Shown here piece after piece: positions 31,483 through 37,130 of a DNA stretch of 64,000 nt. This DNA comes from Moraxellaceae bacterium. GTDB taxonomy: Bacteria > Pseudomonadota > Gammaproteobacteria > Pseudomonadales > Moraxellaceae. Each line of letters begins with the position of its first letter. The stretch's first letter is position 1. A model generated the notes under the pieces. That model was not told the origin of the DNA and searched no databases. It saw nothing but the letters and a program-made list of their open reading frames with translations. The position numbers and the translations under genes are program-made. The stretch is taken from assembly GCA_029237815.1 (NCBI GenBank), contig JAQZBP010000006.1, positions 434,001 to 498,000 on the forward strand, in the 5' to 3' direction.

Positions 31483-32043
31483 ATGTTTCGTCCGTATTTG
31501 TTAGCGGCCGTACTGGGTTTCGGGGCAAGTACGGCTCACGCAGCCTTTTCCTATGACTTTATAGAGGGCGGCTTTGGCGAAGTAGATGAGGGTGATGCCG
31601 TCTTCCTGAACGCCAGTAAGGGCATCGACAACAACCTCTTCGTGTTAGGCAGTGCCTACATGATTGACTCCGGAATAAACATTCCCGGCTATGACGGCGA
31701 GGGGTTCTACCTGGAGGGGGGGCTGGGTTATGCGATGCCGCTTGCCCCCAACGCCGACTTCTTTGCGAATGCCCAGGTGCTCTACGCCAACTTCGACCTT
31801 CCTGGCGAAGATGATGACATCGGGGGAATTGCCCGGGCTGGATTGCGCTATATCCCTGTCGACAAGGTCGAACTACAAGGATCCGTAGCCATGAGCTCAA
31901 ATGACTTTCTCGTGGATGACGGCTTTGGCCTGGATGCCTCGGCACGCTACCACTTCGATCCGCGGCTCTCGGTCGCCGTTGGCTATAGCAGGGATACCGA
32001 GCTAGATGGGGCCTTCCTGAACCTGCGGTATACGTACCAGTAA
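31483..32043 (+). CDS. Small outer-membrane beta-barrel protein, function unknown
   Basis: The product has 186 residues from the ATG at 31483, which has a near-perfect AAGGAGGTGG ribosome site; an upstream in-frame start would spoil the signal peptide. The signal peptide MFRPYLLAAVLGFGASTAHA is cut at AHA/AF. The rest alternates polar and hydrophobic residues in about eight strands with acidic turns (GEDDDIGG, DDGFGLD) and ends in an aromatic-rich strand, YTYQ. This is the pattern of small eight-stranded barrels (OmpW/Ax21-like size). I cannot assign a family. A strong terminator follows. Confidence 0.75.
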   Translation: MFRPYLLAAVLGFGASTAHAAFSYDFIEGGFGEVDEGDAVFLNASKGIDNNLFVLGSAYMIDSGINIPGYDGEGFYLEGGLGYAMPLAPNADFFANAQVLYANFDLPGEDDDIGGIARAGLRYIPVDKVELQGSVAMSSNDFLVDDGFGLDASARYHFDPRLSVAVGYSRDTELDGAFLNLRYTYQ

Positions 32044-32338: not shown

Positions 32339-33607
32339 ATGGCACGTTCATCGTCTTTAGCACCCTGCTTTCTCACCCTTGTTCTGGCTCCGGTGCTCGG
32401 CATCGCGGCGCCTGCGTCTACGCCTGCCACACAGGCTTGTTCCGGTGCCAGCGGTACGGCCGCTACGGTGCCCGCAAGCGACATTGACTACCCGGCCATC
32501 AATCGGCACCTCCTCACTCCTGAAGCCACGCAGCGACTGATCGGGCTGCAGGCCGAGATCCGCAAACTGGATCTTTCCCGCGCGCCCGAAGCCACCCTCG
32601 TGCGGCACCGTCTGCTGCTCGCCCAGGCGCAGACGCAGGCCAAGCTCGGTATGAGTGTCGCCGCAATGAGCTCCCTCAAGAGCCTTCCGGTGACGAGCCC
32701 GCAAGCGCCCGAAGCGCTGCTGATGCTGGCTGAAATGGAGGTGAAGAACGGCCGGCCCAAGGCCGCTGTCCGCTGGCTGCGCCAGATGGCGGAAGTCTTC
32801 CCCGAAGAGCCCCTCACCATCCAGGCACTGTGGCGCGCAGCAGAGCTGAATTACCCGCACTCGAGGCAGGCCATCGCACTGTGGCAGCAGGCCGCACGAC
32901 ACGCCGACCAAGCGCTGGCGTCCGCCCAGAGCTGGCACGCCCGCAGTCAGCAACCGGATTTCCTGGACAGGATGAATAGCGACAAGCTCTCACCCGAGCT
33001 CTGGCGTCTGGCGCGGGCGGCATTGACCGATCCGGCCTTTGCCAGTGCAGATGCAATGCAAACCGAGGCACGCCGCCAGCTCCAGTGCCTGACCGTGAAT
33101 CAGGATGCGCAGCTGCGCCGCATGGAAAAAAATCCGCGCCTGCTGGCGGACCTCAACGAGACGGTCGAAACACTGACTGCGCAGCTGCAAGCGTCGCGGA
33201 GCGATATCGCCCAGCGTGAAAAGGCCTTCCTTGTTACTGCACAGGGCCTGAAAGACTGCGAGGCCCGGCATGGCAATTGTGATGAACTGAAAGACCAGCA
33301 TGCCGCGCAAGGGCGGGAGCTCACTGGCTGGCGTAACCGGGTGCAGGGAATTGAGCGGAAGCTGGCCTTCCTGCGCCAGGAAGAGGAAAACCTGCGGGTG
33401 TCAGGCCCGTCGGGCAGCGCTGGAACCGCCGTGGCGAGTCAGCTGACCAGCCGACTCAGCAGCACCCGCACCTTCATGCACGAACTGTTGCAGCAGTCGT
33501 TGGCGGACGCCGTGCAGGACTGGGAAAGCCTGAGCGCGGAGGCGCACTACAAGCTCGCCGTTGCGCAAGAACCTCGCGTGCATCCTGGTGTGGTTCCGCA
33601 GAAGTAA
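32339..33607 (+). CDS. Exported helical-repeat and coiled-coil protein, function unknown
   Basis: The product has 422 residues from the ATG at 32339, preceded by AAGGAAGGA; an upstream extension to 32147 lacks a ribosome site. A signal peptide (MARSSSLAPCFLTLVLAPVLGIAAPA) suggests the periplasm. Residues of about 80-200 look like TPR-type helical pairs (EALLMLAEMEVKNGRPKAAV, WLRQMAEVFPEEP). Residues of about 255-375 are a long charged coiled coil starting at RRMEKNPRLLADLNETVETL. The layout suggests a scaffold or assembly factor at the envelope. No homologue is recognised. Confidence 0.78.
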   Translation: MARSSSLAPCFLTLVLAPVLGIAAPASTPATQACSGASGTAATVPASDIDYPAINRHLLTPEATQRLIGLQAEIRKLDLSRAPEATLVRHRLLLAQAQTQAKLGMSVAAMSSLKSLPVTSPQAPEALLMLAEMEVKNGRPKAAVRWLRQMAEVFPEEPLTIQALWRAAELNYPHSRQAIALWQQAARHADQALASAQSWHARSQQPDFLDRMNSDKLSPELWRLARAALTDPAFASADAMQTEARRQLQCLTVNQDAQLRRMEKNPRLLADLNETVETLTAQLQASRSDIAQREKAFLVTAQGLKDCEARHGNCDELKDQHAAQGRELTGWRNRVQGIERKLAFLRQEEENLRVSGPSGSAGTAVASQLTSRLSSTRTFMHELLQQSLADAVQDWESLSAEAHYKLAVAQEPRVHPGVVPQK

Positions 33608-33618
33608 GAATGTTGCGC

Positions 33619-33647
33619 AAAAAAGCCTCGCTCAGCGAGGCTTTTTT
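33619..33647. terminator. Bidirectional intrinsic terminator
   Basis: AAAAAAGCCTCGC, loop TCA and GCGAGGCTTTTTT lie between the convergent coiled-coil protein gene and the START-domain gene. Confidence 0.92.
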
Positions 33648-33685: not shown

Positions 33686-34345
33686 TCACGGCTCACGGAT
33701 ATAGGGTAGCTTCTTCCCGAGGTATTTTTCACGAGTCAGCATTTGCCGCAAGTTGCGAAGCGTTTGCATGGGCTCATCGGGCAAGTTGTAGTTGAAGATC
33801 AGCGGCGGCACGTATCCGCCTGGATCTCCATGCCCCCACAGCTCGATCTTGACCACCCCTCCCTTCTCCGGTGTCAGTCGCCAAATGCTGTGCATGTTGG
33901 TGAGGCGAACGCGTTTGGGATGACGGCCGACCATGCCGCCAACAGCATGCGTCACAACTTCGACAACCCCGCTCTTTTTCTGGCTCAGGGTGGCGTGCAA
34001 AACGGCCTCACGCTCCACAAACGGATAAGGAAGCTGGTAGACGCCGTGCACCCACACCTCGCGATTGGCATCGCGCCTCAGCATGCGTGCGGCACGCATG
34101 CGGGCAACCCACTCCGGCATGGCGGGCACGTCGGAGAGAACGGCTACGATACTGGAAAGACTGACCTTGACTCTGGTCGTGGCATAGAAGCCCTTGTAGG
34201 CGGTGCCAGGTACATCACGCAGGTAGGCACGGATGTCCCGCGCCTCATCGCGACGAACCAGCTGCCATTCCTCGGCGCCACTCACCCCGGGGCTCAGCAG
34301 AAGCCACAAAGACACGACCAGCCAGCGCACGGGAAATTCCTGCAT
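33686..34345 (-). CDS. Exported START/SRPBCC-domain lipid-binding-type protein
   Basis: The product has 219 residues. A signal peptide of about 24 residues (LVVSLWLLLSPGVSGA) is followed by a START-like fold: EWQLVRRDEARDIRAYLRDV, YKGFYATTRVKVSLSSIVAVLSDV, PEWV, QLPYPFVEREAVL, IWRLTPEKGGVVKIELWGHGDPGG and a C-terminal helix with NYNLPDEPMQTLRNLRQML. This order of segments matches bacterial START proteins that bind lipids or hydrophobic ligands. Export to the periplasm suggests a role in lipid handling at the envelope. It follows the barrel-like gene by 17 bases, so the two likely form one transcript. Confidence 0.85.
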   Translation of the reverse strand: MQEFPVRWLVVSLWLLLSPGVSGAEEWQLVRRDEARDIRAYLRDVPGTAYKGFYATTRVKVSLSSIVAVLSDVPAMPEWVARMRAARMLRRDANREVWVHGVYQLPYPFVEREAVLHATLSQKKSGVVEVVTHAVGGMVGRHPKRVRLTNMHSIWRLTPEKGGVVKIELWGHGDPGGYVPPLIFNYNLPDEPMQTLRNLRQMLTREKYLGKKLPYIREP

Positions 34346-34362
34346 CGGGATTGACGAACTAC

Positions 34363-35307
34363 TCAGGGAAGCATGTAGGTAATGCTAAGGCCCAAGCCTT
34401 CCTGCTCCTGGTTGCCATGCTGCACACGATCACCGCTAACGTAATCCACTTCTGCATCATCTGCCCAGCCATAGCTGCCGGACGCGGCCAGACGCACATT
34501 CGGGGTAATGAAATAGCCCGCCGTAAGCGTGAAGGTATAGGCGGCAATATCATTGGTTGACAAAGTGGCGGTGCGCATTCCCTGCTGCCAGCTGGCGCTG
34601 CCACTCAAACGCATATACGCAGCATTGCCTATATGCTGCAGCACGCCCAGCTGCAGGCCGTAGGTATCCTCAGTGTCCTTTTCGTCATCCGTGCCCATGG
34701 ACAGCTCATACTCGAGCACGGTGCGGTCCCACTTGGTGCTGCCGGCGAGTTGCGGCGAAACCCGGGTATAGCCCCGGCCTCTTCTGCCCTCGTCGAGCGT
34801 GGTGAACTGGATCCCGTTCACGGTCTCGGCCGTAGTTCCACTGTAGTCGCTGGCTGTCGGGATGAGCACTGCAACGCGCGCTACCATCGCAGTTGCCGCA
34901 CTGGCGAACAGCCGGTACTCAAGCCCGGCCCCCAGATCGTCGAAACCCTCCTGGCGGGCATCATATTGCGCCCTGATCGGGAGATTGTTCACGAATCGTC
35001 CTTGAAAGGCGGTGTCAAAGTCGGATTCGGAAAAGCCACCAGACAGGTAAGCATTGAGGTTATCCCTCAAGCCGAACACCAGGACCAGGCCGGTTTGCTT
35101 GGTCGTCACTTCGGCAACACCGAGCAGCGGCTCAACTACCGACGGGTTGCCCGCAATGCTGTAGCGCGAGTCGAATTGAAGTTCCGAGCGGCTACTGCTG
35201 AAGCTGGCAAGGGCTTCACCCGCCTTGATCATGTCGGTGTTGTAAAGCGGCAGTGCCGCCTGGGCCACTGGCGCCGCCAGCAGCAGAAGGGAGAGTGCGC
35301 AGCGCAT
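34363..35307 (-). CDS. Putative outer-membrane beta-barrel protein, function unknown
   Basis: The product has 314 residues from the ATG at 35307, which has AAGGA six bases upstream. The signal peptide MRCALSLLLLAAPVAQA is cut before ALPLYN. The mature part has repeated amphipathic strands (GLVLVFGLRDNLNAYLSGGF, GLEYRLFASAATAMVARVAVLIP, TRVSPQLAGSTKWDRTVLEYELSMG) and ends in a strand, GLGLSITYMLP, as expected for a barrel of 12 or so strands. It lies only 29 bases after parB on the same strand and just before the START-domain gene. Function is not recognised. Confidence 0.75.
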   Translation of the reverse strand: MRCALSLLLLAAPVAQAALPLYNTDMIKAGEALASFSSSRSELQFDSRYSIAGNPSVVEPLLGVAEVTTKQTGLVLVFGLRDNLNAYLSGGFSESDFDTAFQGRFVNNLPIRAQYDARQEGFDDLGAGLEYRLFASAATAMVARVAVLIPTASDYSGTTAETVNGIQFTTLDEGRRGRGYTRVSPQLAGSTKWDRTVLEYELSMGTDDEKDTEDTYGLQLGVLQHIGNAAYMRLSGSASWQQGMRTATLSTNDIAAYTFTLTAGYFITPNVRLAASGSYGWADDAEVDYVSGDRVQHGNQEQEGLGLSITYMLP

Positions 35308-35336
35308 CAAAATTCCTTTTTTGGGGTGACGGTCGA

Positions 35337-36236
35337 TTACTTGATGTGGGCCAGGATGCCGTCCAGCTCGTCCAGCGAGTTGTAGTTGATCACCAGGCGG
35401 CCTTTGCCGCGGGCGTTGTATTCGATCTGCACTGTCGCGCCAAGCCGCTCGCTGATCTCGTCCTGCAACTTGCGGACATTGGGGTCCAGTGTCTTCTCGG
35501 TTTCGCTGGGCTGGTCTTTCTGTGCGAGCAGCGCGCGCACCATCGCTTCGGTCTGGCGGACGGAGAGGCCCTTGGCGACGACAGCCTTGCCCGCCTTGCC
35601 CTGCATGTTGTCAGGCAGCCCGAGCAGCGCCTTGGCATGCCCCATTTCCAGGTCGCCGCGCTCGAGCAGCGTCTTGGCTTCGCCATTGAGCGACATCAGA
35701 CGCAGCAGGTTGGTGACGGTGGCGCGGGACTTGCCCACCGCATCGGCCACCTGCTGGTGGGTGAACTGGAATTCGTCGGCAAAGCGCTGCAGCGCGATCG
35801 CCTCTTCCATCGGGTTCAGGTTTTCGCGCTGGATGTTCTCGATGAGGGCCATGGCAATGGCGGTCTCGTCGGGAATGTCACGAATGATGACCGGGATAGT
35901 GTCGATGCCGGCGAGCTGCGTCGCGCGCCAGCGACGCTCACCGGCAATGATCTCGTATTTGTTCTCGCCGATCGGACGCACGACGATGGGCTGCATCACG
36001 CCCTGGGTCTTGATGGAGTCGGCCAGCTCCTGCAGCGCGGCCGGATCCATGTCACGACGTGGCTGGTAGCGGCCGCGCTGCAGGTACTCGACCGGCAGAT
36101 TCTTCAGGTCGCCCTCGGAAGGCACCTTGCCTTCCTCGACCGCCGCCACGGTTTCCTTCACCTGGCGCACGCCGGAAAGCAGGGCATCGAGACCCCGGCC
36201 GCCGCCGAGTCCGCGTTTCTTCGTTGTCGTCGTCAT
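35337..36236 (-). CDS. parB: Chromosome-partitioning protein ParB (Noc/Spo0J family)
   Basis: The product has 299 residues, started at MTTTTKKRGLGGGRGLDALL, the usual N-terminal ParA-interacting region. The CTP-binding/N-engagement domain includes GRYQPRRDMD and the GERRWRATQLAG motif. The helix-turn-helix domain has TNLLRLMSL and the preceding HQQVADAVGKSRATV. A C-terminal dimerisation domain ends NSLDELDGILAHIK. ParB loads on parS sites as a CTP-dependent clamp; two perfect parS sites are present in recF. It is 83 bases downstream of parA. Confidence 0.96.
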   Translation of the reverse strand: MTTTTKKRGLGGGRGLDALLSGVRQVKETVAAVEEGKVPSEGDLKNLPVEYLQRGRYQPRRDMDPAALQELADSIKTQGVMQPIVVRPIGENKYEIIAGERRWRATQLAGIDTIPVIIRDIPDETAIAMALIENIQRENLNPMEEAIALQRFADEFQFTHQQVADAVGKSRATVTNLLRLMSLNGEAKTLLERGDLEMGHAKALLGLPDNMQGKAGKAVVAKGLSVRQTEAMVRALLAQKDQPSETEKTLDPNVRKLQDEISERLGATVQIEYNARGKGRLVINYNSLDELDGILAHIK

Positions 36237-36319
36237 GATAAGCCTCAGGCACTGCAGGGCAGCGCGATTTCCATAATTAGAGCAGCACCGGGCAATGGCA
36301 CGAGGGCCGGTGCAAAAAT

Positions 36320-37114
36320 TCAGACGGCTTCGGCAACCGCCTGCCTGCTGCCGTCCTGACGCCGCAGCAGCTCGGCCGCAAGGGCCAGATAGGACATGGC
36401 GCCGCGTGAGGCGCGATCGTAGTTCAGCGCCGGCATGCCATGCGCGGGCGCCTCGGCAAGGCGAACGTTGCGCGGAATGATGGTTTCGAACAGACGGTCC
36501 GGGAAATGCGCGAGCAGTTCTGCGGATACATCGGTGGCCAGCGTGTTGCGCGGATCGAACATGGTGCGCAGGATGCCGGTGACGTGCAGCTTCGGGTTCA
36601 CGGTTTGTGCGACCTGCTCGATCGTATCGATCAGCGCAGCGAGACCTTCGAGCGCGAAATACTCGCACTGCATGGGAATGATGACGCCATCCGCGGCGAC
36701 AAGGCCATTCACCGTCAGGATGTTCAGCGACGGCGCGCAGTCGACGATGATGAAATCATAGCGATCGCGGATGCTGTCCAGCGCCTGGCGCAGTCGCAGC
36801 TCGCGACCGATCACTGTCATCAGCTCAACCTCTGCCGCCACGAGGTCGCTGTTGGCACCGATCACGTGATAGCCCGCCTCGAGGTCCGCGATGATCGCCT
36901 TGTCGATGGTGCAGCGCTTTGTCAGGACGTCATAGGCGCTGTGGGGAAGCTCGTGCTTGTCTACGCCGGAAGCCATGGTGGCATTGCCCTGCGGATCCAG
37001 ATCGATCAGCAGCACACGACGCTTGGTCGCCGCCAGGGAAGCCGCCAGATTGACACTGGTCGTGGTCTTCCCGACACCGCCTTTCTGGTTGGCAATTGCC
37101 AGTATCTTGTCCAT
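36320..37114 (-). CDS. parA: Chromosome-partitioning ATPase ParA (Soj)
   Basis: The product has 264 residues from MDKILAIANQKGGVGKTTTS, where the deviant Walker A KGGVGKT begins near residue 11; the 13 residues upstream in frame are non-conserved. It has FIIVDCAPSLNILTVN (Walker B region) and the MQCEYFALEGLAAL segment. ParA binds DNA as an ATP dimer and is stimulated by ParB to move origin regions. It lies between rsmG and parB. Confidence 0.97.
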   Translation of the reverse strand: MDKILAIANQKGGVGKTTTSVNLAASLAATKRRVLLIDLDPQGNATMASGVDKHELPHSAYDVLTKRCTIDKAIIADLEAGYHVIGANSDLVAAEVELMTVIGRELRLRQALDSIRDRYDFIIVDCAPSLNILTVNGLVAADGVIIPMQCEYFALEGLAALIDTIEQVAQTVNPKLHVTGILRTMFDPRNTLATDVSAELLAHFPDRLFETIIPRNVRLAEAPAHGMPALNYDRASRGAMSYLALAAELLRRQDGSRQAVAEAV

Positions 37115-37130
37115 GTTCTTCCCCGTTCGG

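Follow-up and report, generated by a model that had tools for sequence, protein, structure and literature searches.

The window, a stretch of 64,000 nucleotides from a genome of the Moraxellaceae, carries parA (36320..37117), parB (35337..36260), a gene for a probable outer-membrane β-barrel protein of 314 amino acids (34363..35307) and a gene for a START-domain protein of 219 amino acids that is predicted to be exported (33686..34345). All four genes lie on the minus strand and follow one another in this order. The products of parA and parB are ordinary by Pfam, with matches to AAA_31 and related models for ParA and to ParB_N, HTH_ParB and ParB_C for ParB. The parB stop codon (35337–35339) and the ATG of the barrel gene (35307) are separated by an intergenic gap of 29 bases; an in-frame TTG at 35310 is the source of the gene end given in an earlier, sequence-only reading of this DNA. 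Between the stop codon of the barrel gene (34363–34365) and the ATG of the START gene (34345) are 17 bases, and the START stop codon ends at 33686. The close spacing and single strand behind parAB described in that reading are right. The barrel and START proteins both open with a signal-peptide-like stretch, as read from their sequences.

The START gene converges with a plus-strand gene for an exported TPR-like protein (32339..33607), which has weak TPR matches; a TPR-like gene adjoins START also in four congeners (G059, G038, G053 and G439). A hairpin that could serve as a bidirectional terminator (33619..33647) lies between the two convergent genes. The 51 bases at 33612–33662 fold into a 13-pair stem with a U tract (−21.1 kcal/mol; z −3.7), and none of 200 shuffled sequences was equally stable, which bears out the strong terminator that had been placed after START. 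The hairpin was not listed by a consensus terminator scanner. Further along, a small exported protein resembling an outer-membrane protein is encoded on the plus strand (window 31483–32043) and weakly resembles the Ax21/OmpO porin model; a counterpart is found near the same place in the congener G013 (L048 5717–6268).

Fold of the START protein

The START protein matches the Pfam model PF01852 barely above the curated cut-off (23.0 bits, cut-off 22; E 5.9e-5). Its ortholog in G053 does not match PF01852 at any E-value up to 10 and has only sub-threshold matches to Polyketide_cyc2, which are also seen for the window protein. By sequence, the window protein matches 3qsz, the structure of a STAR-related lipid transfer protein from Xanthomonas, with an E-value of 7e-19. 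A structural model, built from an alignment of 15 orthologs that excludes those of L023 and L031, has a pLDDT of 85.5 and shows the helix-grip fold. The best structural match of the model is again 3qsz (Z 24.0, rmsd 1.7, 26% identity, 174 residues), which has the same fold over the whole domain. Lipid-binding START domains match with Z 15.8 to 18.2 and the aromatase/cyclases of Streptomyces with Z about 14. The eukaryotic START domains of STARD4, STARD5, CERT and ACOT11 have the helix-grip fold in common with the model (Z 17 to 18), but are only 12–18% identical to it and are not bacterial exported proteins; their ligands are not transferable. A hydrophobic signal-like N-terminus precedes the START domain in all 19 orthologs. 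Together with the PF01852 and 3qsz matches, this upholds the earlier description of the gene product as an exported START protein.

The barrel protein

None of the curated family models searched with the barrel protein passed its cut-off. The protein has 13 alternating (amphipathic) segments, compared to 7.0 (sd 2.1) in shuffled sequences, of which 2 in 500 reached as high a count; the test is a home-made one in which Y and W are counted as hydrophobic. The excess is also seen in the G053 homolog (6/500 shuffles) and in the nearby small outer-membrane-like protein (3/500). By the same test, alternating segments are not above chance in the START, ParA, ParB, GidB and TPR proteins, nor in a distant barrel homolog from G770 (116/500). 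The structural model of the barrel was built from 3 sequences and has a pLDDT of 38.9; the best Foldseek matches of this low-confidence model are outer-membrane porins. The barrel profile gave no match to solved structures, and a comparison with plasmids gave none either. As the model is too poor, the family cannot be named. A C-terminal aromatic residue is common, although not obligatory, in outer-membrane β-barrel proteins. It is absent here: the protein ends in ...SITYMLP, with Y three residues before the end. This β-rich exported protein of 314 residues is probably an outer-membrane barrel, as had been proposed; the amphipathic strands support that assignment, and the porin matches of the poor model agree with it.

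The barrel is rare. Among 348 Moraxellaceae genomes its profile found the gene in 2, which both belong to the genus of the window (the window genome, G000, and G053), and it found the gene in 2 of 369 genomes of a class-wide sample, namely the window's own and G770 (1 of 368 others). No START gene is present among the open reading frames of the 8.5 kb around the G770 gene. A search of 390 genomes of the order returned the window genome and one weak match of the C-terminal type. Another search gave matches in 8 of 61 genomes at E 1e-3, but six of them were discounted as not the same gene; these cover roughly the last 80–110 residues only, at 26–32% identity, in open frames of 404–545 amino acids. 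Kinship of the barrel to a 340-residue protein of G027 was likewise rejected (hhalign E 0.22). The two family barrels occupy the same site in the same orientation, adjoining START. They are 31% identical, compared with 89% for ParB and 65% for START of the same two genomes, and this low identity reflects either fast divergence or separate gain. The barrel gene is a rare, lineage-specific insertion between parB and START.

Linkage of START to parB

A profile search of 344 Moraxellaceae genomes found START orthologs in 19, which represent 4 of the 16 genera. Within the window's genus, seven of nine genomes have the gene; the two that lack it are 82% and 59% complete. START lies downstream of parB, on the same strand, in every one of the 18 loci in which parB is visible; in the 19th (G439) the contig ends before parB. 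Sixteen of the 18 loci are without the barrel. The interval between parB and START contains nothing in 11 loci, the barrel in two, and a 132-residue open reading frame, a 122-residue open reading frame and four small open reading frames in one locus each. The remaining two have gaps of about 300 or 700 bases; since parB of G031 is split by unread bases, its gap of ~300 bases is unsure. The four genomes of other genera with open reading frames or long gaps are G020, G004, G031 and G012. In the congener G013, parB and START are separated by a terminator-like hairpin. In 11 of the 18 loci the START gene overlaps the parB stop codon or begins no more than about 60 bases from it, and in several genomes the start is a few bases past the end of parB or inside it. 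Downstream of START, atpI is found within the locus in eight genomes and is directly next to START in seven.

In a tree of 60 START proteins, the 19 parB-type sequences form one clade with a support of 100/100, a grouping reached in none of 500 shuffles. The tree contains the 19 proteins, among them that of G439, where parB lies beyond the contig, and 41 paralogs encoded at the loci studied, a subset of the paralogs. The clade comprises genomes of Perlucidibaca, Paraperlucidibaca, Amnimonas, Agitococcus and Fluviicoccus, and of the window's genus. Of the START matches in the 390 sampled genomes of the order, three pass 1e-40, one of them outside the Moraxellaceae (G290); this one was rejected as a parB-linked gene, there being no parB in the locus read. 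A contig filed as Pedobacter sp. (JAVHYE010000072.1, L047) encodes a ParB 90% and a START protein 66% identical to those of the window, and is probably from a mislabelled Moraxellaceae MAG.

With the barrel in 2 of 348 genomes and START behind parB in 18 of 18 loci, the conserved unit is parA-parB-START, and the conserved linkage to parB is a real feature. Among the papers listed in the literature searched, which mostly lacked subscription journals, none concerned a parB-linked START gene.

START paralogs

The window genome has three START-family matches in total, that is, two further START genes besides the parB-linked one. One paralog is located elsewhere in the genome (G000:C9, about 26.3 kb) after pnp and the genes for a 345-residue lipoprotein and an AdeT1_2 solute-binding protein; the cluster spans about 26.3–29.2 kb on the minus strand (L093 10278–13242). 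Related loci are L095, L096, L097 and L098. The order pnp-lipoprotein-AdeT-START is found in G000, G013, G053, G038 and G059, with parts of it in G027, G439 and G047, and in G053 and G038 a gene for a 714-residue DctM-domain protein separates AdeT from START. AdeT itself matches DctP-type TRAP proteins weakly, below the cut-off. The START proteins of these loci are exported family members like the parB-linked one, but they belong to a different clade and have AdeT1_2, DctM and the lipoprotein as neighbours, not parB. The arrangement suggests that START proteins of this genus may hand apolar acids to TRAP-type importers, and the START-TRAP-transporter locus is the better lead on function. The sterol binder BstC of Methylococcus capsulatus, which is associated with the outer membrane, is classed in the TRAP T-component superfamily (PMC10942540). 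The Bst transporters (BstA, BstB and BstC) are comparable to the proposed START carrier in that they too provide periplasmic lipid carriage on a route from the inner to the outer membrane; they differ in that the portion of PMC10942540 consulted describes none of the three as a START protein.

The number of START-family matches varies widely among genomes. Genomes of the Agitococcus/Fluviicoccus type have 27 (G004), 40 (G012), 29 (G020) and 23 (G041), compared to the 3 of the window genome. Tandem START genes that overlap by about 4 bases occur in five family genomes (L033 to L037); one member of one such pair is over the START cut-off and the other is only near Polyketide_cyc. At three Aquabacterium loci (L063, L065 and L068), START lies downstream of a chalcone-isomerase-like (Chalcone_3) gene on the same strand. 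At L080 (G439), a START gene has an AdeT1_2 gene on one side and, on the other, a gene whose product matches the AsmA family.

Discussion

The sequence-only reading had suggested that START and the barrel form a lipid-transfer pair, an idea that would fail if the two genes did not co-occur in other genomes. Such co-occurrence is nearly absent: only two genomes of the family carry both, most carriers of START being free of the barrel, and a conserved pair was rejected on this distribution. G038, without the barrel, can be compared to G053, which has it. Their ParB proteins are 100% identical over 300 residues and their START proteins 93% identical, with dN 0.043 and dS 0.233 (simple counting on a single pair). 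START is hence kept under the same constraint in a genome without the barrel, and we infer that it is independent of the barrel. It is unlikely that the START protein and the barrel exchange a hydrophobic ligand, in either direction, for passage across the outer membrane, with relatives that lack the barrel using another outer-membrane protein. The tight spacing, common strand and two exported products would agree with such a partnership, as would the presence of both family barrels at the same site beside START, which a facultative partnership would also give. Other membrane-type genes adjoin START in G027 (the 340-residue protein) and G013 (the small outer-membrane-like protein), so another barrel might replace this one. 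However, the G027 protein is not detectably related to the barrel, the one further barrel found (G770) has no START neighbour, the START sequence is nearly unchanged without the barrel, and the two genes differ greatly in frequency within the family (2/348 versus 19/344). That the START protein is an enzyme of the aromatase/cyclase type, or a binder of a small signal, instead of a lipid carrier is very unlikely; the sub-threshold Polyketide_cyc2 matches and the similarity to the Streptomyces enzymes point in this direction, but lipid-binding START domains score higher and 3qsz higher still.

The position behind parAB had also been taken to mean co-transcription and a tie to growth. Co-transcription is plausible at the window from the spacing, and the START genes that begin near or inside the end of parB in several genomes fit it; it is not general, given the hairpin in G013 and the open reading frames or gaps in G020, G004, G031 and G012. 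A link of START to growth would be possible. One could go further and suppose that START stays behind parB owing to a need for its dosage or expression to keep pace with chromosome partitioning or growth; it would then be a gene for periplasmic lipid supply that is linked to the cell cycle. The order kept at all 18 visible loci, the short or overlapping junctions in 11 of them and the single clade of orthologs are consistent with this. We nevertheless regard it as improbable: a terminator-like hairpin separates the two genes in a congener, insertions or long gaps are found in 7 of 18 loci, and the ortholog is absent from 12 of the 16 family genera. Moreover, the order gidAB-parAB-atp may just be stable, with START linked to it passively. 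Quite improbable, too, is a par operon with START as its functional third gene in this Moraxellaceae clade. Synthesis of the predicted periplasmic lipid carrier would then be coupled to chromosome partitioning and to the neighbouring ATP-synthase genes, and the supply of lipid to the envelope would follow the cell cycle.

The most likely role of the START protein is that of a soluble periplasmic carrier for a hydrophobic ligand, one that works without this barrel. Such a periplasmic carrier would be the ordinary reading of the protein. We consider it probable, as a whole, that this soluble carrier was ancestrally fixed behind parB, that the barrel is not needed and that its insertion is lineage specific. 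A Sec signal peptide would direct export of the START protein. The helix-grip pocket would hold one hydrophobic ligand, be it a phospholipid, a fatty acid or another apolar compound, shield it in the periplasm and pass it between the membranes or to an inner-membrane uptake system, with no part for the neighbouring barrel. Fixation of the gene immediately after parB may date to the ancestor of a Moraxellaceae clade that branched off early; the gene's place at parAB would be inherited gene order, presumably at least partly read through from parB. The barrel would be an outer-membrane protein that is specific to its lineage and diverges fast, its gene having been inserted between parB and START in the window genome and in a single congener.

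In the titles and abstract openings of the literature searched on bacterial START-domain periplasmic lipid transfer, no exported bacterial START protein is described. Exported bacterial START proteins are thus little described in that literature. The parB-linked clade and its sister paralogs at TRAP genes provide a small set of named strains for ligand identification, with Paraperlucidibaca baekdonensis, Agitococcus lubricus and Amnimonas aquatica among the carriers.
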